The translations under genes were made by a program, and so were the position numbers. This document shows, one piece after another, positions 7,555-63,768 of a stretch of 64,000 nucleotides of DNA. The notes under the pieces were generated by a model. The model made no database searches and was not told the DNA's origin. It saw only the letters and a list, made by a program, of their open reading frames with translations. The stretch covers positions 9,224,169 to 9,288,168 of the forward strand of contig OX419336.1 of the NCBI GenBank assembly GCA_948470475.1, read 5' to 3'. The stretch's first letter is position 1, and each line of letters opens with the position of its first letter. Source of the DNA: Galaxea fascicularis (taxonomy: Eukaryota; Cnidaria; Anthozoa; Scleractinia; Euphylliidae).

Positions 7555-7836
7555 ACAAGTGGTGGAACAGAGAATTAACTCTGAAGTGTAAATTAAAGTG
7601 CTAAGATAAACCCATAAAAAACCCACTGGGCGTTAGCCCTAGTAAAGGGTATCAGGGAACCACACGAGGCAAAGAAAAAGATTCTTATGACCTCGGTGGG
7701 AATCGAACCCATGACCTCCGGATTAGATCTACCGTTGCTCTGCCGACTAAGCTACGAGGTCGGGCACTTACACTTCAGAGTTAATTCTCTGTTCCACCAC
7801 TTGTATGTGTTTATAGTGCTACGCGGCACAACATAT
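7555..7836 (-). mobile_element. tRNA-derived SINE-like insertion with internal inverted repeat
   Basis: The insertion is bounded by a 12-bp direct repeat, GAATTAGCATAC, at 7543-7554 and 7837-7848, the type of variable-length target duplication left by retroposons. On the minus strand it contains a tRNA-like Pol III promoter unit (7689-7761). A 37-bp inverted repeat, mirrored at 7555-7591 and 7768-7804, brackets the tRNA-like unit. A retroposed SINE does not normally carry such a repeat, so this may be a composite of a SINE and a MITE. Confidence 0.6.
7689..7761 (-). promoter_or_regulatory. tRNA-like Pol III promoter (A and B boxes)
   Basis: This 73-nt unit has a perfect 7-bp acceptor stem (GACCTCG with CGAGGTC), an A box TAGCTTAGTCGG (7743-7754 on the complement) and a B box GGTTCGATTCC (7699-7709). 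The anticodon stem is badly paired and the residue at position 33 is G rather than U, so it is a tRNA-derived promoter rather than a working tRNA gene. Confidence 0.65.
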
Positions 7837-15272: not shown

Positions 15273-16490
15273 GATAACCCGTAGTGTTCTTTTCCACCAA
15301 GGCTAAACGGCAGTTGATGTTAAGCCTTAAATTGACGCGATGAAATCAGGAACCGGTGTCATATGTTAGGTCTCACTAGCGGCAGAAACATCAGTCACAG
15401 AAAAAGATCAACAATGCTTCCCACCAGCCTCATTAAACATCTTTTCAATAACGATGTAAGCGAAAACATTTATTATTAGCTCCAACAGTGACTGACGTCT
15501 CAATCGGCTAACACAAACGTCAAAGGATTATAAATAACGACAGCACAACCGAGCAGATTTTCCTACCTTGAGCAAATTGTACTCATTGTACCGAATGAAT
15601 TCTCTGAAAGTATCACTTTCGGCTCCAGCAGTTATTATTATTATTTTGACCGTGGGCCTTTTGCGAGTCGCAAATCGGGAGCTTTCCACGCACTGTTTAT
15701 TTCACAAGTTTGTTTGAACAGGCAACAAGGAATATCATTTAACCGCGTTCTTTCCACGAAATTCCCGATTTTGACCATAAAGCAGTCGTTTCTTGCCTTC
15801 CACATCTTGCAGAGGCAATGATGTCACGGAAAATTACTCGAGATAGCCTTCATTATTTCAGTTAGGCATCTAAGAGGAATTATTTAGGCGGCAGAGACCG
15901 ACGTCATTGGTAAGTAAACAAATCCTGAAATCATAGATTCGTTTGAACAAACGCATATTGAAAGGTCCGGCTTCGCACCAATCGGACGCACGGAAAATTG
16001 ACATTGTGTTTTTACTACAAACGCATTCAGTTTGTCACGCGAAAAGGGCATTTCAAACGAATAGCTCATTCATAAATGGATGAGGGCTTTTTCTGCTACA
16101 GTTTCGTTAAACATCTGAAAAGGTACAGTATTGTATTGAAGGAATGTCTGGCAGTTAAAGCCAAGGATCCTCCTAAAACGAACGTGCAATAAATGATCCG
16201 TGTAATAAATGATCCAGTTGACAAATGGTAAAGTGTCACTGACGTTCAAAGAGTGCATTTTGCACAAAAGAACTAATGTCTATGCAAATCGCACATAACT
16301 TTAATAGTTGTTATCGGTGGTTATCTTTTATTTGCATCTGCTCTTGAAAACGTCCGAAAAGACAGCCTGTCGGGAGGATCCAAATTGCATGTTGTGGTTC
16401 ACGTTTATTCTTGCCGTTTGGTTTCGTTTTCCTGTGTTTCAAACTCATTGACATACATTACCATATCCCAAAACAAAGAAAATAAGTTTT
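15273..16490. other. 5' flank of the GPCR, no gene seen
   Basis: This region should hold the receptor promoter and 5' UTR. I see no clear TATA box. A short ATT microsatellite lies near 15,635. Frames are short and unconvincing. Confidence 0.4.
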
Positions 16491-33889: not shown

Positions 33890-34722
33890 GTTGAGGAGCT
33901 TTTAATGAAAATTAAAGGAACTGTGAGGATCTTCAAGGGTGGCAGGGAATAGACAGAGATCTTTGTAAGACCGTCAAGGATCCTATTGGGTTTTGAAGAT
34001 CTTAGCAGGAATAAATAGGGATCTTGTTCTGATCCTCAAGGATTTGTAAATATCGATCTTGGCAAAAAGTTTGAGGATTTTGGCAAGAATATTGGGGATG
34101 TTGAAAGATCTTTGAGGATACTGACAAGAAATTATAAGGATCCTTGAAGATCTGTGTAGGACTTTGGCTTTCTCCTTAAGGATCCTTGAAGATCTTGAAA
34201 GGAATAGATAAAGATCTTTGAAAGACCTTCAAGGATCCCTCAAGAACCTTGAAGATCTTGGCAGGATCTTTTTAGGATCCATGAAGATCCTTGAGCATCT
34301 TGGCAAGAAGATTGAGGATCCTTGAGGATCTTGGCAAAAATATTGGGATCTTGAAAGATCTGTGAGGATACTGACAAGAAATTATAAGGATCCATGAAGA
34401 TCTGTGTGGGACATTGGCTTTCTCCTTAAGGATCCTTGAGGATCTTGATGGGAATAAATAAAGATCTTTGAAAGACCTTTAAGGATCCTTCAAGAACCTT
34501 GAAGATCTTGGAAGGATCTTTTTAGGATCCTCAAGGATCCATGAAGATCCTTGAGGATCTTGGCAAGAAGTTTGAGGATCCTTGAAGATCTTGGCAAGAA
34601 TGTTGAAGATCCTCAAAGATCTTTGAGGATCTTTGCAAAGATCCTTGAGGATCTTGCTGAAGATCCACAGTAAGATCTTAAAAGATCCTCATGGAGATCT
34701 TCAAGGATCTTTGAGGATCTTA
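33890..34722. repeat. Right GATC-rich repeat array (250-bp duplication)
   Basis: This is the same class of GATC-centred repeat as the left array. The phrase ATTATAAGGATCC occurs at 34,131 and 34,381, exactly 250 bp apart, and the sequence following both copies matches closely, so a 250-bp block was tandemly duplicated. Confidence 0.8.
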
Positions 34723-36758: not shown

Positions 36759-37147
36759 AAGTGTGACGTCACAAAAAAATTAAATTTGTGAAATTATGGG
36801 ATTGGGCGCCATTTTCGAATGGAGTATCCTCAAAAAAAGGTTCCTTGCCAAAACTTAGCTCTTAATTGTAATTCCCAGCTGAAATATGAAGGATTGAAAT
36901 TTGATACTGCTCCATTTAAATCTCTCTAATTTTGAGTCAGTTCTAAACTGAAGGAACTGAAACAATTTTGAAGGGTTTGTATGGAATGCCATCAAACTTT
37001 GATCCCTTATATCTCTACCGGGAATTGCGATTCGGAGCTAATTTTTGGGAGGAGGGCGTCTTTTAAGGGTGCTCTATAAGAATGTGACATCATATCCCAT
37101 AATTTCAAAGATTTTATTTTTGTGACGTCATCACTTTAGAACTCTAT
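36759..37147. mobile_element. MITE, AGTGTGACGTCACAAAA family copy 1
   Basis: This is nearly identical over about 390 bp to 62,429-62,826. It ends in the complement TTTTGTGACGTCATCACTTT followed by AGAACTCTAT. The left terminus of this copy lacks the outermost AGAGTTCTA. It is non-coding. Confidence 0.75.
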
Positions 37148-37376
37148 TCACCGACTGATCAAGTGAGAACATTTGTTCGTGTCGGGACGCGCTGAACGCT
37201 TTCTCGTTTAAGAGGGGTAGTTTCTAAAGAAACTGTGGTGCTGTTTCGATGGGGAATTGTGAACAAGATTTAAATTAAAGGTATTTATACAAGCCAAACA
37301 TAGTATTTTTTTAGATCAAAGAAACTTCTTATACCGACGCTGATATCTTATGTACTTGATTTTTCAAATTTATATT

Positions 37377-41712: not shown

Positions 41713-41900
41713 TGTAGTGTTGATTAACCCCGTGGGGGTTACGTAACTCGAAGTGTCATGTACGTAATTAATATTCGTGTTTTATAAGTTCGCGTCCTGG
41801 TAAATTTTAGGTGTGTGTGTGTTAGTGTTTAAGTCCTGTTCGTGTGTGAAATAAAGTTTATATCAGTTACTGTGTCGTTCCACGTTTGAAGAACACAACA
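41713..41900 (+). repeat. 5' LTR
   Basis: 188 bp, starting TGTAGTGTTG and ending GAACACAACA. It contains a TATA-like TTTATAAG (about 41,782) and a polyadenylation signal AATAAA (41,850-41,855). The base at 41,808 is T; the 3' copy has C at 46,218. Confidence 0.97.
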
Positions 41901-41902
41901 GT

Positions 41903-41912
41903 TGGCGACGAG
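41903..41912 (+). promoter_or_regulatory. Primer-binding site, tRNA-Ser(GCU)-type
   Basis: TGGCGACGAG lies two bases after the 5' LTR. It is complementary to a tRNA 3' end CTCGTCG-CCA, which I recall as the acceptor end of tRNA-Ser(GCU). The gag ATG follows immediately. Confidence 0.7.
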
Positions 41913-44900
41913 ATGCCGGACTCACCAGAAGGCTCAGCACAACCAAGTGTCGTGGTTCATCCATCGTTTTTGGGGCGTATGGAAGAGTTTACGCCGGGCA
42001 GTGACTGGAAGCATTACGTGGAGCGACTCGAAATGTTCTTCGCAGTTAACAGTATTCCGACGGAAAAGCAAGTACCAAGCATACTTACCTTAATGGGTAG
42101 TAAAATGTATGCTTTGTTGAGGTCCATTTCAGCGCCGAGGAAACCGAAAGAATTAAGTTTTACGGAAATTGTGGATACTCTGGCTCAGCATGTGGACCCC
42201 AAGCCGATAATTATCGCTGAAAGATACAAGTTTCACAAAGCCGAACAGGAAGAGTCGGAAACCATTAGGCAGTACCTAGCCAAGCTACAAAAGTTAGCGG
42301 AGACTTGCGAATTTGGTCTGTATCGCGAGGAAGCCATTCGTGACCGGTTTGTTTGTGGTTTGCGTTCTCAGCCAACTCAGCGCAAGTTACTGGCCGAAGC
42401 GACGTTGTCTTTACAAACTGCCGTGGAGAAAGCCTGTGCCGTCGAGTTAACGGAAAAGGAAGCCTCAGGATTTCATGGTGTTGCCCACCACGATGTTAAG
42501 AAAGTGGAAGGAACTTTTCCCGAGTGTTTTAGGTGTGGGAAAGTCAACCATTCTCCGGAAAAATGTTTTCATCGGAAAGCACAATGTCATGGATGCCAGA
42601 AGTTTGGCCACATTGTAGCCAAGTGTCCGGAGAAACGTGCACCTCGCAAACCAAGGGCCAAGAGCGGGGAGACTAAGAAGAAGAAGAAGAAACCTGGTGG
42701 AATTCATAATGTTGAAGAATCGGAGTCGATGGCGCCACCGGTGGATAAAACCGCCTGGCCGATGTTTACTATAGTCCATAATCAGGGGAGAAGCAAGGAG
42801 TTAATAGTGCCAGTCCTGATTGATGGAAAGCCTGTGGATATGGAGGTGGACACTGGTGCCTCTGTGACGATCATACCGAACAGTGTATGGACTGATGTAC
42901 TGGCAGCGAAGTCCTTACAGCACACTGACGTGAAATTGCGCAGTTATTCAGGGCATGAAATCCCAGTTCTTGGAGAGACCAAGGTTCAGGTGTCGTATGG
43001 TGATCAACAAGCCTGCCTTCCAGTTTTTGTCACTGCAAGTGATGGTCCAACACTTCTGGGACGAAATTGGCTGTCCGTTCTTAAGCTGGACTGGAAGCAG
43101 ATCGGACAGATTTCTCTGGCGTCGGTGGACCAAGTGGATAACCTGGTATCGAAGTATGCATCGTTGTTTGATGGAGGTCTGGGGACTATCAAGGGTGTGA
43201 CCGCTCACCTCAAGCTAAAAGAAAATTCCACCCCGCAGTTCTTTAAACCAAGACCTGTTCCTTTTGCCTTGAAAGAGAAGATTGCGGAGGAGCTCAAGAG
43301 GTTGCAAAGAATTGGTGTATTGGAAAAGGTGGAATTCTCAGACTGGGCCACTCCTATTGTCCCAGTTTTAAAACCAGATGGCACCGTGAGGATCTGTGGC
43401 GATTATAAAGTCACTATCAACCCTGTTTTGGACGTGCCTGAGTACCCCATGCCAACGGCTGAAGAGTTATTTACGCAGCTGAATGGTGGTGAGAAGTTCT
43501 CCAAACTTGATTTGTCTTCGGCATATCAACAAGTGCTGTTGGACGAGGAATCCCGGCAGTATGTCACGATTAACACTCATCTGGGACTGTTTCGTTATAC
43601 ACGCCTTCCCTTTGGAGTGTCGGCAAGTCCAGCCATTTTCCAGCAAACAATGGACTCTATCATGAGTGGCCTTAATGGAGTCGGTGGTATTCTGGATGAT
43701 TTAATCGTTACTGGTTCCGATGACAAAGAGCATCTTCTCAATTTGGAGAATACGCTGAAACGCTTAGACAGTATGGGGGTGAAATTGAAGCAGTCCAAGT
43801 GCGTGTTTATGAAGTCCTCAGTGGAGTATTTCGCGTTCGTAGTGGATCGACGTGGAATTCATCCTTCTCCGCGTAAAGTACAAGCAATTCAAGAAGTTCC
43901 TGTGCCGAAGAATGCAACGGAACTGAAATCTTTCTTAGGGTTGGTGAATTATTATCGTAAATTTATTCCTGATATGTCAACCATTGTCCACCCACTGAAT
44001 TGCTTGTTGACGTTTGATGCTCCCTGGGTCTGGACGAAAATCTGTCAAGAAGCCTTCAAGAAGTTGAAAGAATTGCTCCTTAAGACACCTTTGTTGGCTC
44101 ACTATGACCCGAATCAACCAATTCGGTTAGCTGTTGACGCCTCATCATATGGTTTGGGAGCAGTCTTGTCGCATGTTTCCGATGACGGAGAAGAAAGACC
44201 AATCGCGTATGCATCCCGCACCCTCTCAGCAAGTGAGCAGAATTATTCCATGATCGAGAAAGAAGCTCTGGCGATTGTGTTTGGCATAAAGAAGTTCCAT
44301 CAGTATCTCTATGGAAGACGCTTTTCACTGTTGACGGACCACAGACCTCTCACCCTGCTGTTAGGTCCTAAGCGTGGTATTCCTGTGCTGGCCGCGTCCC
44401 GCTTGCAACGTTGGGCTATTCAATTGTCAGCTTATCAGTATGACATTGAATATCGAGCTTCCAAAGATCATGCCAACGCTGATGCACTGTCTCGATTGCC
44501 AAGGAAGATCGTGGAAGAGCCAGGGGATTGGAGTATCGAAGCTGATCAAGTTAACCGTGTTCAAATGGAACGAGCTCCAATCACGGTGTCTAAAATCCGC
44601 GAGGTTACGCGTGGGGATCCAGTTCTTTCACGTGCGATGTACAGTATTTTGCATGGTTGGCCAGCGGAAAACTGTGTCCCAGAAGAGTTGAAGATTTATT
44701 ACAGTAAACAAGATGAGTTTACCATTGAAGATGGCTGTATCCTTCGTGGTACCAGAGTAGTGATTCCTGCTAAATATCAAGATGCTGTTTTGTCGGAGTT
44801 GCATTTGAACCATCCTGGAATGGTCCGCATGAAGTCTTTAGCCAGATTGCATGTGTGGTGGCCCAGCCTTGACCAAGATGTAGAGCAAATGGTGCGAGAT

Positions 44901-45992
44901 TGTGACGCCTGCCAGGCAAATCGCAGTAAGAGCCCTCTCAAAGTCAGCAATCCTTGGATCTGGCCCACACGCCCTTGGCAGAGAATACATGTCGACTTCG
45001 CGGGTCCGTTTAATGGTCAGATGTTTCTTCTTGCAGTGGATGCAAAATCGAAGTGGATTGAAGTATTCCCTATGTCCTCAACCACTGCATCAGCAACCAT
45101 TCAAGCTTTACGTTTCCTGTTTGCAACACACGGCTTACCAGAGGAGATAGTTTCGGATAACGGTCCCCAGTTCGTGGCACAAGAAATGAAGGACTTTTTA
45201 AAGTCAAATGGAATTGGTCAATGCCTGTCCTCGCCTTATCATCCTGCGTCAAATGGCGAAGTCGAACGAGCTGTGAGAACTTTCAAAGAGTCCATGAAGA
45301 CCATGAAAGATGAGCCGGGAACCCAAACAGAGAAGTTAGCGCGTTTTCTTCTGGGCTATCGAACTACTCCTCACACGGCCACTGGATGCACACCTGCTGA
45401 GATCTTGATGGGAAGAAGAATCCGCACTCGGTTGGACCTTATGCATCCAGATATGTCGGCTAGAATTTCTGAGAAAACCAAGTTGGGAAACCATACCACT
45501 CGTCGTAATCTACAACCTGGTGATCCAGTGATGGTTAGAGATTATCGGGATCGTAAGCGACCGTGGATCAAAGGTGTCGTTCAAGATCGGCTTGGTCCTG
45601 TTACTTACAGAGTTATGGTGAAGAATTTGTTTTGGAAACGACACATTGATCAACTGCGGTCCATAGCTGGTTCAAAAGTCGCAGATGCCGAACCAACGGC
45701 TGTACTTCCAGAAGATGATGGTTATCCAGAAGTGATTCCTTTGCGACAACCCGTACACCCACAGGCTGTAACGTCAGATTCGCAGGCCGACGTGAAACAC
45801 GATTTCCTACCAAGTCCTAACAGTACGCAAAATTTGGTACCAGTTCCTGCATCAGAGGCCAGTTTATCTTCTATGTCACAAACGCAGATGCTAGATGAGT
45901 CCAAAACCGAAGAACCTGCCGAAGTTCCAGTTCCAAAGCGTTATCCGTCCCGAGTTCGTAGTAAACCCAAACGATTAATTGAAGAAATATAA
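41913..45992 (+). CDS. gag-pol: Gag-Pol polyprotein, Ty3/gypsy
   Basis: A single frame of 1,359 aa from the ATG just after the primer site; an apparent earlier TTG start lies in the LTR and is not used. In order: capsid-like region (about 1-190); two CCHC zinc knuckles (about 204-240); a K/R-rich linker; protease with V-D-T-G-A-S (D at 313); reverse transcriptase (about 440-640) with L-P-F-G-V-S and an I-L-D-D catalytic box (595-596); RNase H (D742, then E and D further on); integrase with an H-H-C-C finger (about 964-1005) and catalytic D1028, D1082 and E1118 (D-x35-E); a G-P-x-x-Y-type C-terminal module; and a Ser/Pro-rich tail. Gag and Pol are fused without a shift or stop. RT usually has Tyr or Phe two residues before DD; here it is Ile. 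Confidence 0.96.
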   Translation: MPDSPEGSAQPSVVVHPSFLGRMEEFTPGSDWKHYVERLEMFFAVNSIPTEKQVPSILTLMGSKMYALLRSISAPRKPKELSFTEIVDTLAQHVDPKPIIIAERYKFHKAEQEESETIRQYLAKLQKLAETCEFGLYREEAIRDRFVCGLRSQPTQRKLLAEATLSLQTAVEKACAVELTEKEASGFHGVAHHDVKKVEGTFPECFRCGKVNHSPEKCFHRKAQCHGCQKFGHIVAKCPEKRAPRKPRAKSGETKKKKKKPGGIHNVEESESMAPPVDKTAWPMFTIVHNQGRSKELIVPVLIDGKPVDMEVDTGASVTIIPNSVWTDVLAAKSLQHTDVKLRSYSGHEIPVLGETKVQVSYGDQQACLPVFVTASDGPTLLGRNWLSVLKLDWKQIGQISLASVDQVDNLVSKYASLFDGGLGTIKGVTAHLKLKENSTPQFFKPRPVPFALKEKIAEELKRLQRIGVLEKVEFSDWATPIVPVLKPDGTVRICGDYKVTINPVLDVPEYPMPTAEELFTQLNGGEKFSKLDLSSAYQQVLLDEESRQYVTINTHLGLFRYTRLPFGVSASPAIFQQTMDSIMSGLNGVGGILDDLIVTGSDDKEHLLNLENTLKRLDSMGVKLKQSKCVFMKSSVEYFAFVVDRRGIHPSPRKVQAIQEVPVPKNATELKSFLGLVNYYRKFIPDMSTIVHPLNCLLTFDAPWVWTKICQEAFKKLKELLLKTPLLAHYDPNQPIRLAVDASSYGLGAVLSHVSDDGEERPIAYASRTLSASEQNYSMIEKEALAIVFGIKKFHQYLYGRRFSLLTDHRPLTLLLGPKRGIPVLAASRLQRWAIQLSAYQYDIEYRASKDHANADALSRLPRKIVEEPGDWSIEADQVNRVQMERAPITVSKIREVTRGDPVLSRAMYSILHGWPAENCVPEELKIYYSKQDEFTIEDGCILRGTRVVIPAKYQDAVLSELHLNHPGMVRMKSLARLHVWWPSLDQDVEQMVRDCDACQANRSKSPLKVSNPWIWPTRPWQRIHVDFAGPFNGQMFLLAVDAKSKWIEVFPMSSTTASATIQALRFLFATHGLPEEIVSDNGPQFVAQEMKDFLKSNGIGQCLSSPYHPASNGEVERAVRTFKESMKTMKDEPGTQTEKLARFLLGYRTTPHTATGCTPAEILMGRRIRTRLDLMHPDMSARISEKTKLGNHTTRRNLQPGDPVMVRDYRDRKRPWIKGVVQDRLGPVTYRVMVKNLFWKRHIDQLRSIAGSKVADAEPTAVLPEDDGYPEVIPLRQPVHPQAVTSDSQADVKHDFLPSPNSTQNLVPVPASEASLSSMSQTQMLDESKTEEPAEVPVPKRYPSRVRSKPKRLIEEI

Positions 45993-49923: not shown

Positions 49924-50151
49924 ACTATAGTGGCCTATTGCCATCACTTGACTGAAATTTGTCCGGCAACGATTTTCCAAGAATTTTAAAACAAAAATCA
50001 AGTAATACTTCAATCAAAACTTTATTCATTGAAAATCAAAGTGAAATTGAAAGAAACGATAAAAAACACTGACAAACTGTAACCAAAGTCAAATGAAAAC
50101 ATCAAACAAAAACAGTAAGAAGTATGAAACAACAGTAGTACGAAATTTTGC

Positions 50152-50728: not shown

Positions 50729-53700
50729 TCACAAACTGTTTCTTATTTGGTTGAAATCTATGATCATTTGATAAGTCTCGATGAGCAAATTCTCCAAAAC
50801 ACATCCTGAAAAATGGCACGCTAGGCTGCTGAGGGACTGGGATTGGGTTGTACTCGTCAAGGTTGCATTGCGTGTGCCTGTAGAAGAAGACTGCTGGCCA
50901 GATGTAGGGTTGAGTAGAGTAAGGCCCTTGAGTTTTCTGTCCTGAAAGAAAATTATGAGCGTCAATACGATGACGACGATTTGAATCAAAGAAGAGTACA
51001 GCGCCAACGAAAATAATCAAAACAGAGAAGGAAATTATTGTTTCTAAAAATCCATGCCAGAAATTCCTTTAAGAAGGTACATGGAAAGCGGCTATTTTGG
51101 TACGTTTTAAAGAAACAGTCTCATCCTCATGGTTGCCGGGAATGTTCCAAAGCGAAATTCCTGCTTCCTTTACTTTGTACCAGTTGCGGTCCTCTCAGCG
51201 CCCAGTTCCAAACTCTCTCTGTGCAATGATTTGGAGTAAATTGTGCAAGTCATAAACGCCAGTCTCGAGTTAAATTTTCCCGATCAGTTCAGAGGTCTGT
51301 TTGTAAATGGTAAAGTATCCTGAGCAAATCACCCACTAGCTGACAAAGAACATGAAATGTACTGAGAAAACTACAAAATAATCAGTAAACTGATTATATC
51401 CAAATCGCTAAATACGGATGGTGCATCGCATGGATTATGGATACTTACGATATTCACTACCCTTGGAACTAGGCGTTTCATCTGGTCCATCATATCTTGA
51501 AAATTTTTCAGATATACGGGAGGCGATGACTTGTTCTGTGCACGGGCCAGCTCTGCTAATGAGTTTGTTACTTGCTGGTTGAAATCGAGGAAAACTCTCC
51601 TATGAAATTCCAGAAGATCGCTTCTCTGGGTAAAAATAAAATAAATATTGTTAGATTCTGCTAATTTTGTTTCAGTTAATGGGACCAACTTTTTCTCCAT
51701 GAAACGAAAATGCTGGGGTCGAAAATTGCTGCACTCATCAGAGTGCCGAATGACTGAAAAAAAAAAAATGTCACACAACAGAACGATCTGGAAACATTAC
51801 TAGCGACAGTAAAATGTTCTAAATCTATCAGCCTGATAATATATATTCTCCACAGACATTCCACAGACACTCCAGTTGAGCTTTTCTAGTCCTTCCCCAA
51901 AGCTTTCTTCTCAAAGCCGCATCCTTTCACGTTGAAGTTATAATTTACTTTTGAATAATAATAATAATAAAAAAAAAACACTAATTAGGGCGGGTTTCGC
52001 TCGCGTTTCGAAAGTCATTCTCATCTGCTTTACTTTAGCCGTACATTACTCTGCCATATTTCTGAACCCGGCACCGAAACACAAAATGAAAACTTATCAT
52101 AACTTGCTCTCTTGAATGAACTGATTTTCCTGCGCTCGGCATTGGGTACAAGCTTCGAGGTAATGGCGTCGAATTCTGATTGGTTCATTGTGCCGTTTGT
52201 GTCTGTTGCAGTCGTGGTATGCCAGAGCTATTGTTTTGGTTTTAGTTTTAAGTCAATCACTTGAAAGCAGTCCTAAACCGATTGATATTAGTAGAAGCAG
52301 CAGGAAGTTACCGATGTGTTGCTCCAGTTGGTTCTTTTCAAGTTCATATCTTTCATCACCACGTCAGCTGGAGAAGTACAGGTTGGGCTGCAAAAGTCAC
52401 TTACGCCGTAATCAACTTTCTGCAAAAAGAATACATTTGTAAGTCCGTGTTTCCCTTCCTTTTTTAAAATTCTTATAAGCTAACTTGTAATACGGACGTC
52501 TTGAGTTTAATTCGCATCAATCAGGATGGATTTTGTTTAACGCAGTTTTAGCTTTCCCCTCTCCCGTTCTAATTCTCGACAACTCTTCCTTTGTAAACAG
52601 CCAAATGATAAACCTCTCTTCCAGATGGCAATGTGTATTTCATTTTTTAGTACGAATCTTCCTTCATACCCTGGAACAACAGTCATTCTTGTCATTTACG
52701 ATTGTATGGGGTATGATAAAAAGGACAACTATTGCCTTGAGCTTGTTACATTTCCCATTGAGAAAAGTGAGGAGGAAACAATTATGCAAACAGAGAAGTG
52801 ATAAATAGTTAGAAAATACACAAACAAAAGACATATACGATAAGTAAAAACTTGGGAATATTACTGCAGGAGAAAACCTTTATTCCCATATAAAAATTGT
52901 TGTCTAACACTAAGAGCTAAAACCTCTGAAAATAATAATTCTGACATTTCTCTAAAGCCGTTGTTGATACCGCATTTGGACAAATCTTGTTTCCGCGCTT
53001 TTTATTTTTAAGGGTTACAAAACGAGACGAACAGACGTCAAATCACCACTGTGATAACATCGATCACGATATATTTACCACCTGGATAAAAGCACAAAGT
53101 GTACAACTTACTGTATGGTTTATGGCCCGAACTGTTAAGGGAGCCAGAAGTCGCGACAACGATGACAGCAAGTCAACGTTTCTTCGAAAATCCCGACGAA
53201 GCCCTGTCGTTCCTGAGCATCGAGTTCGGGGACAGCCAGCATAAGAAGGGGACTTGTTAAACACGATCACAAGACACAGCAATGTAAAATAGAGGCTTCG
53301 CAGAAATTTAATGGTGGTGTCTGCAAAAAGATCAGATGGTTAGTTAATACCCCGGGGCAATTTAAGATTGCCCTCAGGGCTGATATTGTCTCTCTTGCTT
53401 CTCTGGAAGATGAAGCTATCACAGTAAAGAATGGAAAGTGTCTAAATAGAGTGTTTTCACTCACGTGAATATCACCCATGTTGGTTTACTGAAACAAAGG
53501 AAGCTTTTTGCATAAGAATAGAATGCAATTCCCACTGAGAAGTTTATTTCGGGACACCAACATGGCCGCCGTTTCTTTGTTTTAGAACACCAATATGGCC
53601 ACTGTGACGTCATGTGAAAACACTCTGTTAGACCGTGAGTTCATACGCCGAAGGAACGACGTCATAACTTCTGCTAAGTGTCCATCTTGAATTATTCCAA

Positions 53701-54793
53701 TTCATTGAGAAATCTCAGGAAATGGTCAGTTGATTAAAACAATACCAGACACAATAGAGGAAAACTACAGCAATGGTTGTGTAAAAAGGCAAAAGCTGCC
53801 TCGATGACTCTAACAGTTCTCAAGGAAAGATTTAACAAAAAAAAAGCATGGCTGTCAGAATCTCAGCCATAAAGCAAACTATCAAACCAAGTGATGAATG
53901 TAATAGCTGTATCATATCAATTTCTTGCATGTTCCAAAGTATAGAGGAGGTTATTCTATTATTTAAAAATCGTAGCAAAGTTTGGAAAATGTTTGAGAGA
54001 AGTTTTTAAATAAACCACTGCCCTTTCGTATCCTACAGTAAATTTTCCAAGTTATTCCCATGATAAAATTCAGTTTTAGTAATAAAAGAAAAAGGATGAA
54101 CTAAGTCCTTGCAAGTTGCAGAAAATTGATTGTCCAGAAAGGTCTGTGCGTGCCAGGCCAGGGTTTGAAATGTCTATGTCATGGCAAGTGATAGTTTGTG
54201 TATTGGAGGTCAAATTTAAACCAGCAAATAGCCTACGACATCAAAAGAAATATATATCGCTGAAAAACTTGAAAAAGTTGTCCCTATTGTTTCAAGTTGC
54301 GATCCGTTTCAGTCCTTGGCGTCCTAAGCTAAAGAGGCTTATTCAACGTTTTGCTAATTGGTAAAAAAAATTTAAATAAAACCGCCATTACTTTTAGGTT
54401 TTCTTTGGTTCCAATATCGTTTTGACCCTCTCAAAGTAATATCAAAAATTCGCGTCACAGCTTCTTTAAGAAGGAAACGGAGAACGATTGCTGGAAAATT
54501 AAACCTTAGAAAATTGAGGTCACCAGACAAAACACTATGACAGTAAATAGTTAAACAAACACCCCACGCACGCCCTGGTGAGGTTATTTCAAACATCAAT
54601 AGGACGTGCCGTAAAGATAAGGCGAAGTAGAAGACAAAACAAAAGCTTAAGGAAATAAAGTGGTTATGTAAGTAAGCAGGTGATAGAGTAGCTGGAAAGT
54701 AAGGCAGCTAAGGTAGTGCTGGACTAAATTCTCAAATTCAATAAAAGAACAGGATAAGTAGCACTGTACTTAAACTGGCTACTCACCAGCCAT
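50729..54793 (-). CDS. Secreted helical protein B (five exons, 237 aa), putative cytokine-like
   Basis: Spliced on the minus strand from exons 54787-54793, 53112-53320, 52312-52419, 51449-51625 and 50729-50941 (7, 209, 108, 177, 213 nt), with GT-AG borders. Intron phases are 1, 0, 0, 0. Residues 1 to about 31 are a signal peptide (F-T-L-L-C-L-V-I-V-F core) split after codon 2. Exon 2 then gives a Cys pair and an amphipathic helix (D-F-R-R-N-V-D-L-L-S-S-L). Exon 3 is a loop with C-S-P-T-C and an N-T-S sequon. Exon 4 holds two helices around a K-S-S-P-P-V linker. Exon 5 is a Ser/Thr-rich linker, A-C-H-F-S-G-C and a last helix. The mature protein has six Cys. The exon 3 donor is GTAACT, slightly weak, and exon 5 has a second long frame. 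No known family is recognised; the layout resembles long-chain four-helix cytokines. It pairs with gene A at 59-63 kb. Confidence 0.6.
53448..53626. mobile_element. MITE in intron 1 of gene B
   Basis: AGAGTGTTTTCAC at the left faces GTGAAAACACTCT at the right, with CACGTGA and GACGTCATGTGA inside. It is 179 bp and non-coding. It includes ATGGCCGCC and ATGGCCAC phrases that resemble start-codon contexts by chance. Confidence 0.65.
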
Positions 54794-57285
54794 TGTAGAA
54801 AATACTTCTCTCTTCGATTTGCAGATTCTTGTTTCGAATGATTCGAGATTCGAAGTTTGATTGAGGAGTTTTCCAAGATGCCCATCCTTATATACCCATC
54901 TACAAGTTCCTGACCTGTCATTTCAAAATCTAATTTAAGCTTTTCACTCGCCAAACCAACAGACCTAGACTTTGGGAAACCCATTCTTCTGAGTCATGTA
55001 ACAGGTGGCAAAATTCTTCCCCGGTTCGACTTTCAATATATTTTTGCAAGTTAAAGTCACAGAATTTATTTGTCTTCTTCTTTTTTTTTTCTTTCAGTAA
55101 AACATTAAAGACACATACTTGAAAAAAACTTAACGAAAGGGTTTTTCATGTTCCTTTTTTTAAGTGTGCCCTTTGGGTGTTGTTTTGAGATGCTCTCGTA
55201 TTGTCCTTTATAACAACGTTGGAACAATTAACTTCCTATCATAACAAATCGAATTGTTTATAATTTTTTAATAAAATTCACCGGAAATTTCATAACACTG
55301 TTTTCAACTGTATTATCGGTAAATCTACGTCCGTTGTTGAAACGCGACAGGCGGGGTTTTATTATATTGTAATATATTTAGTAAAAGATATACTATAATT
55401 ATTTATAATTCACAGCATGAATGAAGTGTTCACATCATGTACACGTCGATTAACAATCTATCATTGAATTTTGAAGAGCTCAAATTTACAGAGAGACGGC
55501 CTTTCGTTCTGGAGATGCCATGGTTGGACAGTCAAAGCCGCTGAAATACTAACGGAGTAGAAGTTGAGAAGGATAAACATTCTTCCTGTTTGAGTTCACC
55601 GCATGGTCACAAGCTAAATTTGCGTGAAGTGCGCGAGCACCTAAAGTGGGCAAACGCTAGTTTTCTTTGCCAAGATTATTTTATCATTCAATATTCCGAC
55701 ATCCTGTTCCTGTAAATTCGTATTTCATGTTTATTTCAAATCGTTCACAAAATCTTCAACCAGTTGAGCTAAATACACCCGAAGCGTCCAACTACAGTTT
55801 GCTTCAAGTTATTCAGATGAAGACCTTAGCTCACTCTCGAACGTATGTTCAGTTTTTGGTTTCTATCTAACAGACAAAGGAATCGAGAACATTTCATGAG
55901 TTTGACAGCTTCGTTAAGAAGTGAGCGTGTGTATTAATTACCTCAGGCTTTACTGTATGTTCACGAGGCAATTATCGGGAAATTATGTTCTCATAGTGTT
56001 ATATGTACAGTCATATACTTCTCAAAGAGCATATTCTAAATGGTGGCAAGCAGATTTTTTGTGGGAAACTCGCAAAAGTCATGTTCATATATTTATTTAG
56101 CCCCTTCACATCAAAATCTAAACTGATGTGTTTAAATGTAATTTATAGTTTTAATTACATTTTTAGGCGCGGCGTGGACGTTTTATTCGCTTATTTCTAA
56201 GTTTTTCTTATCTTACTCTTTTGAGATCCATTTCATGAAGATTGGATTCCATGGCAATCGGGGATGTTTGAAGTGCTAGTGTTTTTAAAGTGTAAGGAGT
56301 ATGTGATGAGTAAACATATTACTCGACAATTTGTAAAACGGGATCCTTCAATCTTGTGGCAGGGTTAAGGGTGGGAGAGTGCTGAACAGTGTTGTTTCAA
56401 AGTTAACGAGAACGCAAGAGGCGGTGACGGCATCTGAGAGTGAAAATCGATTCGGTCGTAGCCTGTTGCTCTTGAAGCGTCCTGTCGAGTTCCAACAAAG
56501 TCTAGTGTATTATTTGTAAAGGTTTTCACATGGAATTCTTCTTGAACCGATTTCATATGCATTTGTGATAATAGTAAACAATAATATGTTAAGTTTGAAA
56601 CTTCGGATCAGCTTCGTGGATATGGAGATTACAGGCTGTCATCCTCCACATAGGAACAGTCAGTTAGTTGCAAGTTCTCAATAAGAACTCATCAACATTT
56701 ACTAAATGACACTGTACAAACGGTGCCATTAAGACACAACGGATATCTCAGAGGAGACAAAATAAAACACAACGAGGAAAGGTAATAGTGGAAGTGCCCT
56801 TATAACATTTGGCCTGACTTTTGTTAATAAACAAAACTGGATGCATAAACGAATACAATTTACAGATGTTCAATTGCGGTCTAAAGGCTCTATATAAAAT
56901 TATACCTCGTTAACTATTTTACAACTCGTCAAACAAGCTATGACATGTTATTTCTGAAAGATACACCACAAAGGAAGCGTTTAAAATAAAGAAAAAATCG
57001 CTTGTATAAAGGGGGAATTTTTTTATATCAGTTTTAAATGAAGCTAACATGTTAAATGGCATGGTGAAGACAAAGTTGCAATTATTGTTAATGAAAATGA
57101 TCTTGGCTGCATCGCCACCGGATTTCCACACTTCATGCAGGATACGTCCACTTGTTAAAACCAGTTAGAAACTAACACAAAACTGCGAATTGTGTCATGA
57201 TTCAGGTACGACTTTTGATTCTAGTTTTGTGACTAATCGTACTAAGATTGGTTTTTTTCAACAAATAAGAGTTTGACGTCACGTG

Positions 57286-57288
<3 letters not shown>
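54794..57288. other. 5' flank of gene B, no other gene seen
   Basis: The promoter and 5' UTR of gene B should begin here. The sequence is AT-rich with short frames. I looked for a third paralogue and saw no matching signal-peptide exon. Confidence 0.4.

Positions 57289-57325
<37 letters not shown>
57289..57325. repeat. (AT)n microsatellite
   Basis: Alternating AT for about 30 bp ending TGTATATAC. A GCGCGCGC-rich stretch lies at about 57,419-57,450. Confidence 0.85.
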
Positions 57326-57548
57326 CTTTGTGCCCCTATGGGCTTAATGACGATGATTTTTTTCTTTTGTTCAAAACAGGCGTTCAAGACGCGCGTAACT
57401 TATCGTGTTATTGTGTTGGCGCGCGCGGAAGTTAAGTCGCGCGCGCGCGTTTGTCAAGGTTGTTACTTTTAAGAGTAGAAAGACGCTTGCGGTTGAAACA
57501 GTATGTGATAGTATATAAGTGATTAAGTGATAAATTAGCCATATTGCT

Positions 57549-57975
57549 AGCATGGTTGTCCAGATAGTGAAGTGGTCATCACACCCGACTGGTGATCAGG
57601 GGGACTTGGATTCACTGAAATCGCAATCAGGGCAATTGCAGTTTTTCAATTTCTCCAGAGTTTGTCCAGCGTTGGGTTTCCCTTAACTCTCTTTCAAAAT
57701 TTATCCTCAACTTGGACTACGAATCCAGTTGCGATCCTCCTGGGGGTTCGAGGGACCTACTTAACTGACTCTTTTCATAATTGCCCTTGTCCACCTGTCA
57801 TTACATGTTGACCCAGTGTTTTCACATGGAAAAACTGGTCCTTGGGGAGTACCACGGAAAATGGCACACATTAAGTGATTAATCAGCCACGTTTCCAGCA
57901 TAGTTGTCCTGATATTGTAGTGGTCATTACAGCCGACTAGTGACCAGGGGGACGCTCTCCTTTACGTCGCTCCCG
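57549..57975 (+). mobile_element. tRNA-derived SINE, two heads in tandem
   Basis: A tRNA-like head (AGTGAAGTGGTCATCAC, then CCGACTGGTGATCAGGGGGAC) at about 57,549-57,615 is repeated with changes at about 57,897-57,955, roughly 348 bp later. The B-box region is degraded (GGATTCACTGA). The spacing suggests a SINE of about 340 bp followed by the start of another copy. Confidence 0.5.
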
Positions 57976-58619
57976 TGATTCGAATGAAGTCTGTATTTGC
58001 AAGACAGCAGATGACTTTAGAAATCGATTGATCAGTCTAAGAAACTCTTCGTTAGTTTCTGATCTTTAAGGCCGTTTGGATGCGTTCTGGTTTAAACGTA
58101 TACTCTTTAATGCGGCAATTTCGCGTATACGTTCTTTAATGAAGAATCGAAAGTTTCTACTAAAGTAACCAAGAGGCTATCGAAAACGTGTTCAATATCA
58201 GGATGGTTTAGAACAGGCATACTTTCAGTGTAGAAGTTTTAAAAAGAGAGATGATAACTGTTGGGATCCGCACACTGAAGAGCACACGGTAAATAACCCT
58301 TAGTGTGGATCTCCCTAAACAGAAACAAAATAATAATGGCCCTATTTAGATACATCTACCTTTTCATAGTTTTAGCACTCGGCTCGGCAAAGGCCACGTT
58401 GACTTATGGCTGTTTGTGTGTGTGACCTCATACACCATAAGCCTTTTTTGGGATGTCACGCCAAGCCGGCCACTTGCTGATCATAGAACAGATCAGAAGG
58501 GTGTCATTAGGGGTGGTCACAGTCAGGGTTCGTTACGTCCCTGCTAGTGGTTCTCTAACGTTCCCGACACAGAATCAATCATGAATGGTTGTGAGACGGG
58601 GCCTGTGGTTTATCTTCCT

Positions 58620-58912
58620 TAAGGGCGATTTACACGGTACGATTTTCGCTTACGACTGTCGCATGCAACTTCTGTAGCGCGCGCTGCTCGCGCCGTGCAA
58701 AAATTCGAATACGACACTTGTCATTCAATATTACCTATACCTACGACTGTCGTATGGTTTTAAAACATGATTCAAAATTTTACGACAAATTTTAGGCCGC
58801 GTACGTCTGTCGTAGAGAGGTTGTAGGAGCATTCACACGGCGCAACTTTGTTCTACGGTATGTCGCATGCAACAAGACGCGCGAGAAATCGTTCCGTCTA
58901 AATCGGCCCTTA
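58620..58912. mobile_element. MITE with AGGGCGATTTACACGG ends, TA-flanked
   Basis: The left end AGGGCGATTTACACGGTACG faces the right end CGTTCCGTCTAAATCGGCCCT. TA flanks both sides (58,620-58,621 and 58,911-58,912), as in mariner-like insertions. Repeated ACGACTGTCG phrases lie inside. It is non-coding. Confidence 0.65.
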
Positions 58913-59335
58913 GTCACAACACTTGATATCCTTTCCTCTCGGATAACGAGTATGTGGGCTCTTTTAACACTAACTTCAACTTTGTACAGACACCACCATC
59001 ATATCTGTTTTACTTTCCAACCATTCATTGAATGTACATGTATGCTCTTTAGCTTCATTTATTAAGCGCAAGTTTCCTATCATTCTGTAAAGTTATACAG
59101 ACAGTCTCACAGAGACTCAAACTTCTGGATCAGATACCCAGTATCATATAGCAATAAGCTAAACATAACACAATAAAATTCTTCTTGCGTAACACAAATA
59201 ACGGATGAAATCTCTGTATTCGTAAGAACTATGAAGTTCTCCCACGAAGAATGTTGCCCGAAACCAAAGAGTTAGTCGTTGAATCCCAATGTTCTGGCCC
59301 TGTGAACGACGCTCGATCCATTTAATTTGTTAAAA

Positions 59336-62300
59336 TTAACACAGTGTTTTAGCAAGAATGAAAGCGTCAACGAGGCTGCTGTGCAAGTCGCTCAACATGG
59401 CAAACGCTTGTAGAGCAACACTGTGAAGTGTTAAAGTTGTTGGTGAGGATATTGCTGTTACGGAGCTGTGGACACTGGCTCTGATAACGTGCAAGCTGCT
59501 TGAGGTGTTTACGACGGCGCTTGTTGTAAGACGGATGGATACTGTGCTTGTTTGGGTCGCCTGCGATACAGAGAAAAACGCATTGGATAGTTATACAGTT
59601 ATACAGTATGTATATAGTGGCGTGTTAGCTCATTTCAAGTACGGTAAGAAGTGAGTAAAAAATGTTTACAGCTTTGACAAGGTCCACACACGTCACAGCG
59701 AATTCAAGAATTCATTTTCCTAAGGGGAGTGGCGTTTTTAATGCATTGGCTGATGTTTTGTCTAGAATTTACATTTGTTGTGCATTTTTTTCTCATTTGA
59801 AGGTATTATTGCTTTAAACTCCTCAAAGACAGCTGTATTATGAACCTTGCTTGGTGACTATCTGCGTCATTGTTTATTGGTCTTCACAAGTTGTTACAGC
59901 CAAACTGTAGGGTTTGATAGTTCAAATGAACGCTTAAAGTCTTTTCAGTAACGCTGTCTGAGTTTAAACAAATGTGTTCAACTGGACTTACAAGCCATAC
60001 TGAACTCCTTTACCTTTCTCAACACGCTTTGAATTATTTGGATGGTGTTAACGATAGTCTCGGCTACCCATTTGACTTCCTGAAGGTGATCCGTCACATC
60101 TCTAGCAGGTGAAAAGGCACCGAGCTGCCTTTTGAACTTGGTTATATGTGGGATATATCCATTTAAAATGCGACGAATGACTTCTAATTTTGCCAGGGGC
60201 TGCAAAGAAAATAAGACACTGTCGAGTATCAGAAATAGTTGCGCCTAAATTCAATCACACGAAAGAGAATAAAGAATGATAAAATGATAACATCATCAAT
60301 TATATGGAATAACATTCAACTATTTGCATGTTACAAACTAGATGATCTAAGAACCCTGAGAAGGTGATGGCGTGCTCCACACCCACCCCCTCCCACCCCC
60401 CACCCCCCCTCGCAAAATGGAGTTAATTAGTCGCACCACTTTATAGTTACGTCACTAACTCTGAACAGCCGCGATCTTGGATCCCGGATATTCGACCTTT
60501 CTTAATCTTATCAGTACAGGCCTTAGGAAACCATCAAGATTCATTCTGAAGTAATCAAAATTAGTAGACCAAGACACGCAAATGAAATAATACGTACTTG
60601 CAAATTGTGATTACCACAGAAATATGAAGTAAGAACTGGTTTCTTATGGTTCCTTCCCAGTAATTTGATGCTGCAAAACGCCGAGGGGAGTATTCAAGTA
60701 AAGTATTCTATTCTATTCTAACTGATAGATCCAGTGGAAAGCGAGCGCCGGATACTATGTTACTAAATCTGTAATTTGTATATCATCAAGTACTGAAGAT
60801 ATACTGAAACAAAAAAATTCCATTTTTGTTCAACCTCGTCCCCAGGGCTTTCCCTAGAAAGAAAAATGGCGCCATTTTTCTTTCTAGGGAAAAGCCCTGG
60901 GAATGAGGTTGATTTTAGTTTACACAACGTAAGAAATATTGTCGCTCCAGGGCCCAGTTGTTCGGGAGCCGATTAACGGTAACCCATGCAAGATTAGAAA
61001 TTAACCAAAGGGTTTATTTCTCAGGATATCCCCAAACAATGTTCATCCCTGACTTTATGCAAAATCTCAGCCTCATTACAGTAAGTCATTTCTAAAAACT
61101 AAAAAGTTGACCCAAAAGTTAAAAAACTGAAACCTAAGTTTAGTGTAATCCTGGATAAAGTTAATGGCGGCTTTTGAATAGTCTTACCGTTGTTTTGTTT
61201 ATGTTTTGGAATGCTGTTGATACGGGTGTAATCTGTATATCTGATAATTCGTAAAGCTTGTTCTTAAGCCACTTTTCCACCTGCAATATACAGAAAGAAA
61301 ACGTGTTCCGTTATAACGCTGTTCAAAGTTAGTGCATCCCCAGTCATGATATAGACGCTAGTAGTGTAGATGATATAGTTTTATTAACAAAGTGACGGTT
61401 CTGTGTTAAATTATCTGAATAAAAAAGGTGAATGATGAGATCAAACATCAAATCTAGTGGTGAAAAATTACGTAAATAGTCGAAACTGTCCATTCAACAT
61501 TGGCGTCACATACAACGATATTAATAGTTAAAAAGATACTTACCATTCTGTCCTTTGTCTTAATAGTTTCTTTTATTAGCTTGGAAACCAATGGAGTTAA
61601 ACTTTTGAGCATCAATCTTGTGTTTTTATCGAGCTGGCATGTCTTTACAGCTCGAGCCGAAGAAACTAACACCAACAAAGAGATAATTGTCGCCAAAACT
61701 ACAGAAAGAAAGAGAACGAATGAATGAGGGAACGAACGAATGAACGAATGTATGCATGCATGAATTGATGAATTCCTGATATGGGATACCCACATTGCAA
61801 CAGTTTCAAAGAAAGTGTGGTCTGGAATCAGTATCATGAGAAAGATCAAACCTTTTATTCCATTATGTAGCCTAGTGGGCATTTATTAATCCATTGTGGA
61901 GCCTTACTTTGATTACTGTAGTATTGTTTGGAATGACATCAGTAATAACCTAGCCGACAAACTTAAAAAATTGCAAGATCGAGCGGCACGTGTGATTACT
62001 GGTGCTGATCTGATATGACTCCAACAAGCGAAATTTTAGATAAACTTGGCTGGACTAATTTAAAGGAGAGAAGAAATAAACAAAAAACCCTTACAATGTT
62101 CAAAATTATAAATGAAATGACACCATCCTATTTAAAGGATTTTTCCTCAGGGAACGTGGGAACCTCTGCTTACAACCTCAGAACCTCGAGAGATGACATT
62201 GCCACTCCGAGGGCCAGAACAGACTACTATAGAAAAAGGTTTGCGTTTACTGGAGCTAAGATCTGGAATGCCCTCCCAAATAATATGAAATCTGAGCTCT

Positions 62301-63420
62301 GCCTCGAAGTTTTTAGGAATAAACTGAAATCTCTCAATTTCGGTATTGATATCTAAACCAGCTTTTTTATCATTTTAAATAATTCTTGGGTTTAAAATGT
62401 ATCAGTTGTATTTTACTTAGTCTTTCGTATAGAGTTCTAAAGTGTGACGTCACAAAAATTTAAATTTGTGAAATTATGGGATCGGGCACCATTTTCGAAT
62501 GGAGTATCCTTAAAAAAGGTTCCTTGCCAAAAATTAGCTCTTAATTGTAATCCCCAGCCGAAATATAAAGGATTGAAATTTGATACTGCCCCATATAAAT
62601 CTCTCTAATTTTGAGTTAGTTCTAAACTGAAGGAACTGAAACAAATTTTGAAGGGTTTGTATGGGATGCCATCAAACTTTGATCCCTTATATCTCTACTG
62701 GGAATTACAATTCGGAGCTAATTTTTGGGACGAGGGCATCTTTCAGGATGCTCTATAAGAATATGGCATCATATTCCATAATTTCAAAACTTTTATTTTT
62801 GTGACGTCATCACTTTAGAACTCTATTTGCACGGCTTTTGTGAAGAACAGGAATTGTAAATTTTTGATCAAAACTATCGTGGTGAAATAAAGTTTTATAT
62901 CTATCTATCTATGGATGAATCGATAGGTGGGTGGGTGGATGGATGGATGGATGGGTGGGTGGGTGTGTGGGTGGATGGATGGATGAATAAATGAATGAAT
63001 GAACCAACGAACAAACGAATAACAAATTGTGGACAAACTAGCTATAAAATTCATAAACCTAAAATCATGTCATTCCATCTATGAAGTCGAAAATTCCCAT
63101 TAGATGATTGCTGTCAGTCTTCCCATACGCGCAAGTCTGATTTAGTATTGAATTGACAAAGTTCATTCTATTTTGCTTGGATTCGCGTAATAATATCTTA
63201 TCTAAATCAGACTGATGTGTCTTTAATATATATTTTTTCCTTCTTATTCATTATTATATTGTCCTTGTTAAGATACGTGCTTTTGCAATACGGTATGAAG
63301 TTATGGTCATGAAAATAAAGCTACTCAGTTGTTGTTGTTGATTTACTACAACTCATAGATTCTCTAAAAACCAGTCTTTTGCTTCTTAAGCTGCATCGTG
63401 GTTTTAATCTTACCTTTCAT
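59336..63420 (-). CDS. Secreted helical protein A (five exons, 221 aa), putative cytokine-like
   Basis: Spliced on the minus strand from exons 63414-63420, 61544-61698, 61188-61280, 60014-60199 and 59336-59560 (7, 155, 93, 186, 225 nt), with GT-AG borders and phases 1, 0, 0, 0, the same pattern as gene B. Residues 1-19 form a clean signal peptide ([13 protein letters not shown], cleavage after A-R-A). Exon 2 then gives a helix with C23. Exon 3 is a shorter segment with an N-K-T sequon. Exon 4 holds two amphipathic helices ([10 protein letters not shown] and [12 protein letters not shown]). Exon 5 is a Ser/Thr-rich linker and a final helix ending in C221. These are the only two cysteines, so they may pair and tie the ends together. 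An alternative exon 4 donor (GTAAGT, 22 bases further) would shift exon 5 into a different Cys-rich frame ending at 59,367. No known family is recognised. Confidence 0.62.
60831..60911. repeat. Near-perfect hairpin, small MITE
   Basis: CCCAGGGCTTTCCCTAGAAA at the left and TTTCTAGGGAAAAGCCCTGG at the right converge on ATGGCGCCAT. It lies in intron 3 of gene A. Confidence 0.7.
61890..62917 (+). mobile_element. LINE 3' end (CR1/L2-type) in intron 1 of gene A
   Basis: The plus-strand frame [15 protein letters not shown] followed by [11 protein letters not shown] is the C-terminal end of a non-LTR reverse transcriptase. A frameshift near 62,010 leads into the second part (62,015-62,356: [13 protein letters not shown], ending F-R-N-K-L-K-S-L). 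The 3' UTR ends in AATAAAG and a short ATCT repeat tail, as in CR1/L2 elements. A MITE (62,429-62,826) is inserted in the UTR. The copy is 5'-truncated and dead, and is antisense to gene A. Confidence 0.8.
62429..62826. mobile_element. MITE, AGTGTGACGTCACAAAA family copy 2
   Basis: The left end ATAGAGTTCTAAAGTG faces the right end CACTTTAGAACTCTAT. GTGACGTCACAAAA and TTTTTGTGACGTCA lie inside. It is about 90 per cent or more similar by eye to 36,759-37,147. It is nested in the LINE 3' UTR. Confidence 0.8.
62903..63020. repeat. Tetranucleotide microsatellite (ATCT, GGAT/GGGT, GAAT)
   Basis: Successive short runs of ATCT, GGGT, GGAT and GAAT units follow the LINE tail. A related GAAC/GAAT run lies at 61,708-61,765. 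Confidence 0.85.
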
Positions 63421-63685
63421 TGTGTTCAGTGAGGTTCCGTTGCTCCGATGTTACTTTAAGTCAATCTTTTCCTGAGCTTTGGAATTGCATTGAGATGAAC
63501 TTACCTTGTTCGTTTATATACTCACCGTAAAGCTGTAATTTTCAAAATTAGACATTTAATCTCGTCCTGTTGACTAGGATTTTGTTCCTCTTGCCATCCA
63601 TCTTTTGGCCCCCGATGTTGCATTGCCAGGGAAGACTATAGCGGGGATTTTCCTTAAGCTTTCGACCGGCCGCAGTTGCCCTCTT

Positions 63686-63715: not shown

Positions 63716-63768
63716 GGGGGATGTTCCGATTCTACCGTAACCGGCGACGTTGATAGGCACATGGACAT

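Follow-up and report, generated by a model that had tools for sequence, protein, structure and literature searches.

What kind of secreted protein is encoded by two neighboring genes in the stony coral Galaxea fascicularis, each of which opens with a coding exon of seven nucleotides (nt)? The genes, here called A and B, lie on the minus strand of a 64,000-nt stretch of contig OX419336.1 (positions 9,224,169 to 9,288,168 of the forward strand, assembly GCA_948470475.1), which was analyzed as a whole and is referred to as the window; coordinates below are counted from its first nucleotide. At the sequence level, A and B are almost certainly real genes. With moderate confidence, we read their products as secreted four-helix ligands laid out like long-chain class I cytokines. 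We favor this reading because exon number, intron phases, exon lengths, the tested distribution of helices and the terminal cysteines of A all agree with it.

Gene Models

Both genes were rebuilt on the minus strand, where they lie head-to-tail as neighbors. Gene A spans 63420–59336, with coding exons of 7, 155, 93, 186, and 225 nt and a product of 221 amino acids (aa), and gene B spans 54793–50729, with coding exons of 7, 209, 108, 177, and 213 nt and a product of 237 aa. Each has five coding exons and intron phases of 1-0-0-0, and all eight introns have GT-AG boundaries. The initial annotation had described two five-exon genes on this strand with products of 237 and 221 aa, each having a 7-nt first coding exon that splits the signal peptide, followed by three phase-0 introns; coordinates, lengths, and phases all proved right on rebuilding, and the nine junctions it had claimed come to eight. 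The exons are as follows.

63414–63420, minus strand: gene A exon 1, 7 coding nt (ATGAAAG), phase 1
61544–61698, minus strand: gene A exon 2, 155 nt; remainder of the signal peptide, Cys23, and proposed helix A
61188–61280, minus strand: gene A exon 3, 93 nt, 31 aa; proposed end of helix A and AB loop, with the sequon NKT
60014–60199, minus strand: gene A exon 4, 186 nt, 62 aa; two predicted helices, exon residues 2–27 and 35–61
59336–59560, minus strand: gene A exon 5, 225 nt, 74 aa plus stop; Ser/Thr-rich linker, predicted helix 45–73, then Cys221
54787–54793, minus strand: gene B exon 1, 7 coding nt (ATGGCTG), phase 1
53112–53320, minus strand: gene B exon 2, 209 nt; remainder of the signal peptide, Cys32 and Cys37, and proposed amphipathic helix A
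52312–52419, minus strand: gene B exon 3, 108 nt, 36 aa; two N-glycosylation sequons and Cys82-x3-Cys86 in a proposed AB loop
51449–51625, minus strand: gene B exon 4, 177 nt, 59 aa; two proposed amphipathic helices
50729–50941, minus strand: gene B exon 5, 213 nt, 70 aa plus stop; Ser/Thr-rich linker, Cys209, Cys214, and proposed helix D

Two further features lie in the first intron of gene A. On visual inspection, a 115-codon open frame at 62009–62356 (plus strand) resembles the end of a long interspersed nuclear element (LINE) reverse transcriptase; it had no Pfam match. A dispersed repeat of ∼390 bases occurs in the same intron at 62440–62827 (plus) and again at 36759–37148 (plus); the two copies are direct and 93% alike. 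An inverted match at 71% between the same stretches makes each copy largely palindromic.

Predicted Protein Features

Translation of the models gives both proteins an N-terminal signal peptide with a hydrophobic core and −3,−1 sites of ARA/V in A and SYA/G in B (the slash marking the cut); by the −3,−1 rule, cleavage of A is predicted after SSARA. Mature A contains just two cysteines, Cys23 directly before helix A and Cys221 at the C-terminal end, and mature B has Cys32, Cys37, Cys82-x3-Cys86 (exon 3), Cys209, and Cys214. There are two sequons in A and five in mature B.

AlphaFold2 models cover single exons 4 and 5 of gene A; the helix assignments for exons 2 and 3 of A and for the whole of B come only from propensity and hydrophobic moment. 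Modeled from a three-row alignment, exon 4 of A gave helices at residues 2–27 and 35–61 with a mean predicted local distance difference test score (pLDDT) of 72 and a predicted template modeling score (pTM) of 0.43. Exon 5 of A, modeled from its single sequence, gave in the best model (mean pLDDT 76; 58–68 in the other four) strands at 4–18 and 23–37 and a 29-residue helix at 45–73. Hydrophobic moments were compared with those of shuffled sequences for 13 segments picked by eye, three of them loops, and p fell below 0.05 in five. Amphipathicity was clearest for helix C (p = 0.0022 in A and 0.0088 in B) and helix A (p = 0.0064 in B; 0.040 and 0.048 for its two halves in A), with helix B at 0.052 in A and 0.093 in B. 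The helix order proposed in the initial annotation stands where it was modeled, in exons 4 and 5 of A, and is carried by propensities elsewhere; the strands in the exon 5 linker were unexpected. We infer that both proteins may fold as up-up-down-down four-helix bundles.

Relation of the Two Genes and Metagenomic Relatives

Across all 16 pairings of A exons with B exons, exon 4 against exon 4 scored highest (score 27, p = 0.069), and two of six anchored ungapped tests fell below p = 0.05, at the start of exon 4 (p = 0.011) and the end of exon 3 (p = 0.025). Five exon 4 residues (L5, E6, R9, R10, and T20) are common to A, B, and the metagenomic relative P0001 in the three-row alignment. Because of promoter spacing, gene layout, head-to-tail order, and the weak exon 4 similarity, it is likely but not proven that A and B are old tandem duplicates. 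A tblastn search of the rest of the window for paralogues of either gene gave nothing better than an expectation value (E) of 0.35 among the best 22 rows for each.

Two relatives were recovered from metagenomic data, each matching a single exon. P0001, on an ENA contig of 8,822 bases, matches exon 4 of gene A at 55 of 62 residues with no indel; the aligned piece that contains the exon matches at 75 of 91 residues in all, the intron residues within it at 20 of 29, and two more intron pieces match at 45 of 80 and 17 of 29, in other frames; the closer agreement in the exon suggests constraint. P0002 is a 79-aa sequence on a Joint Genome Institute contig (1,181 bases), recovered with a composite profile at E = 2.7e-4. 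It aligns ungapped with the whole of exon 5 of gene B, agreeing at 50 of 70 residues between the acceptor (FQ/DRK) and the last residue. It retains Cys209 and Cys214, and its last 32 residues include 23 identical and 29 identical or conservative positions. In the search with the whole of B, none of 545 candidates was a relative, and the search for relatives of gene A exon 4 yielded 16 pattern matches in viral contigs and 94 in bacterial or archaeal genome contigs, none of which was confirmed.

Promoter and 3′ Signals

The sequence on either side of the two genes contains the following candidate signals.

63514–63520, minus strand: TATATAA box, 100 nt upstream of the gene A ATG
54888–54894, minus strand: TATATAA box, 101 nt upstream of the gene B ATG
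63718–63727, plus strand: NF-kB-type site GGGATGTTCC, 298–307 nt before the gene A ATG; suggestive only
63644–63653, plus strand: NF-kB-type site GGGATTTTCC, 224–233 nt before the gene A ATG; suggestive only
59058–59063, minus strand: possible poly(A) signal AATAAA, 272 nt downstream of the gene A stop
50021–50026, minus strand: possible poly(A) signal AATAAA, 702 nt downstream of the gene B stop

The two NF-kB-type sites were found by scanning 580 nt upstream of gene A for GGGRNNYYCC, and they account for two of the four distinct places in the window that have this motif. Two or more such sites turned up in 0.37% of 20,000 Markov sequences, each 580 nt long. Because the promoter screen took in seven motif types and two genes, we grade these sites as suggestive only of regulation. 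In the same screen, gene B had two sites upstream, one for AP-1 (−203) and one STAT-like (−493), and gene A had one STAT-like site (−381); STAT-like and GATA sites were set aside as evidence, being frequent in the window (2.7 and 2.3 per kilobase). Downstream, ATTAAA is also present 9 nt after the gene A stop and 216 nt after that of gene B. AU-rich elements were not enriched in the 800 nt past the stops, where ATTTA occurs once for A and twice for B (1.98 expected).

Evidence Against a Cytokine and the Alternatives

Several results weigh against reading A and B as cytokine-type ligands. At the protein level, p exceeded 0.05 in eight of the 13 hydrophobic-moment segments (three of these loops), including helix D of both proteins (p = 0.15 in A and 0.51 in B), and the exon 5 linker of A was modeled as two long strands, to which the CD loop of long-chain cytokines bears no likeness. 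BLASTP of A against B, whose identity the initial annotation had given as low, found no significant similarity, p was above 0.1 in 15 of the 16 exon pairings, and four of the six anchored tests gave p of at least 0.15. Gene B has no NF-kB-type site in the 1000 nt before it. A 2026 survey (PMC13203501) follows IL6R back only as far as Mollusca and places IL6-family ligands in vertebrates only, so it has no cnidarian IL6R-type receptor on record.

Searches against known families weigh in the same direction. A Pfam scan of A and B returned only two rows, both weak and irrelevant (E = 0.053, 0.072), with no IL6 or LIF_OSM row and no class II cytokine domain. In PDB sequence searches, no match to A had an E below 0.63 (the rows there being two chemokines and two chains of another protein) and no match to B one below 0.72; a profile built from both reached two designed helical proteins, with E values of 0.27 and 0.68. 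Sequence searches of Pfam and PDB thus placed neither protein with the named families EPO_TPO, IL6, LIF_OSM, and Hormone_1 or their solved members. Long-chain class I cytokine families have little sequence in common with one another, so this result bars filing A and B under a named family and leaves the fold unaffected. The structure prediction and fold search proposed in the initial annotation gave models with helices for single exons of A, and Foldseek with the exon 4 model returned 69 matches, none at E ≤ 1e-3 and no cytokine among the best 50, which makes it uninformative as a fold assignment. Of the cytokine-like family proposed there, the resemblance in gene structure and the signal peptides stand, and the Pfam and PDB sequence searches supplied no helical cytokine; nor did they give a significant match to an unrelated known secreted family, an outcome the initial annotation had also considered.

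Some of this evidence would also be at home if A and B were lineage-restricted secreted helical proteins of another kind (e.g., mucus, gamete, lipid-binding, or defense proteins), with a coincidental match to vertebrate cytokines and with the small first exon and the phases common to both copies through descent. The lack of significant similarity to any known family in Pfam and PDB, the strands in the exon 5 linker model, and the weak similarity of A to B all speak for such proteins, and phase-1 introns in signal peptides and Ser/Thr-rich linkers are common among secreted proteins. Against them stands the coincidence of five long-chain class I features, namely the exon number, phases, lengths, tested helix distribution, and cysteine pair of A. 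We regard this alternative as unlikely, although it is the strongest of those considered.

A second alternative is that the gene models are partly wrong, with the 7-nt exons or some junctions unused, or with one gene a pseudogene. The models are sequence-level predictions, which counts against the cytokine-type reading as well, and each metagenomic relative spans a single exon. In gene A, moreover, the exon 2 frame stays open upstream as far as an ATG at 61882, where an unspliced start is possible, and an out-of-frame ATG lies at 63490, ∼30 nt after the TATA box. Gene B offers no such choice: its frame, open from 53339 after the upstream stop, contains no in-frame ATG ahead of the signal peptide, so the start has to be supplied by an exon farther upstream. 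The near-identical spacing of the TATATAA boxes, 100 and 101 nt before the ATGs, also argues for the models, as does the absence of indels from exon 4 of A in P0001 and exon 5 of B in P0002.

Chance controls on the start region bear on the same point. Sites of the form ATGNNNN/GTRAG (the slash marking the exon end) number four on both strands of the window, and three of these (A, B, and a plus-strand site at 33822) have TATATAA 65–135 nt upstream; the number expected by chance, from 100 first-order Markov windows, averaged 0.01 per window. A layout scan of the entire window, for a TATA box, a phase-1 first exon of 7–40 nt, and a signal-peptide exon 2 that ends in phase 0, found A and B only. 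Among 100 second-order Markov windows, seven had at least one match and one had at least two, and the reversed window had none. The scan settings were picked after A and B were known, so the scan serves as a control and not as a blind test. The site at 33822 (ATGAAGG/GTGAG) was rejected as a third family member, having no signal-peptide exon 2 within 6 kilobases; downstream of it lie tandem GATCTT-rich repeats, with a repeat of ∼250-base period at 34071–34630. With these controls, we consider wrong models improbable.

Kinship with interferon-type or IL-10-type helical cytokines (class II) is the least probable of the alternatives: fish type I interferons are likewise secreted and helical and their genes likewise have four introns, and interferon homologues have been listed in one coral by automatic KEGG annotation (PMC3750612), but all four introns of the fish genes are in phase 0 (PMC4929537), whereas the first introns of A and B are in phase 1, and Pfam found no class II domain in either protein.

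Proposed Mechanism and Receptor Context

In both genes a phase-1 intron divides the signal peptide after the tiny first coding exon. If A and B are cytokine-type ligands, the remaining exons would correspond to structural units: helix A in exon 2, the AB loop in exon 3, the B-C hairpin in exon 4, and the long CD crossover with helix D in exon 5. The secreted and probably glycosylated proteins would work as ligands outside the cell and draw class I (fibronectin/WSXWS-type) receptor chains together, and this bridging would lead to JAK-STAT signaling. We infer expression of both genes, the ligand role, the receptor type, the common descent of A and B, and their homology to vertebrate cytokines.

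Components for such a pathway have been described. JAK and STAT are cited together in Porifera and Cnidaria in a survey that is inconsistent on JAK in coelenterates (PMC13203501). No native ligand is known for CRLF3, a class I type receptor whose reported range runs from cnidarians to mammals (PMC6797617), and it has yet to be confirmed as a classical receptor (PMC12026705). Low sequence similarity hampers the tracing of cytokine origins (PMC6797617), so gene structure together with fold may offer a way in. A limited search of the open-licence PMC literature found no report of a class I helical cytokine from a cnidarian.

A further-reaching reading would take A and B as true long-chain class I cytokines of a non-bilaterian, with the EPO-like layout of A (its exon lengths, phases, and end cysteines) inherited from an ancestor shared with vertebrate EPO, TPO, GH, and IL-6, with A switched on by NF-kB, and with both as native ligands of ancient class I type receptors such as CRLF3. 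We think this extended reading doubtful. Were the cytokine-type reading true, the ligand half of the JAK-STAT cytokine pathway would be much older than reported, and A and B would be candidate ligands for orphan receptors; its confirmation could push the origin of the EPO-type signaling family deeper into animal history.

Other Features in the Window

A class C G-protein-coupled receptor is encoded by a 955-codon single open frame at 12435–15302 (minus strand), with the domains ANF_receptor, NCD3G, and 7tm_3. A retroelement polyprotein occupies a 1380-codon open frame at 41850–45992 (plus strand), its domains following the order aspartyl protease, reverse transcriptase, RNase H, and integrase, as in Ty3/gypsy elements. 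ARAGORN predicted a transfer RNA for arginine (anticodon TCT) at 7688–7761 (minus strand).

Comparison With Known Cytokines

IL-17 cytokines have been placed in cnidarians (PMC13337447). The insect Unpaired proteins (Upd1–3) are named as invertebrate JAK-STAT ligands (PMC13203501), the role proposed here for A and B. Among vertebrate families, the G-CSF genes of carp, human, and mouse have five exons and four introns (PMC6389648). Members of the IL-6/G-CSF/LIF family resemble A and B in having five exons and in being secreted and helical, and differ in that Pfam gives A and B no IL6 or LIF_OSM row. The cysteines of B before helix A and in the CD region recall LIF.

The exon lengths of EPO, GH1, PRL, and IL6 yield intron phases of 1-0-0-0 in all four cases, and EPO and TPO, with these phases and an exon 4 of ∼180 nt that encodes the B-C hairpin, are the systems to which the layout of A and B can be compared most directly. 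The differences are several: A and B have no significant sequence similarity to EPO or TPO, their first coding exon is 7 nt long and not 13 nt, and their longer exon 5 includes a Ser/Thr-rich linker. No EPO counterpart is known for Cys32, Cys37, Cys209, or Cys214 of B, and A lacks a Cys-x3-Cys pair. The likenesses begin with the five coding exons that A and B share with EPO and TPO. Human EPO has four introns, and its exon 3, nucleotides 160–246, is 87 nt long and encodes the AB loop (PMC5473850); in gene A, exons 1 and 2 total 162 nt and exon 3 covers nucleotides 163–255, or 93 nt. The disulfides of EPO join Cys7 to Cys161 and Cys29 to Cys33 (PMC8391952, where one sentence has Cys171). The Cys82-x3-Cys86 pair in exon 3 of B resembles Cys29 and Cys33, and A resembles EPO in having cysteines at both chain ends, Cys23 and Cys221 standing at the right ends for a putative EPO-like disulfide.

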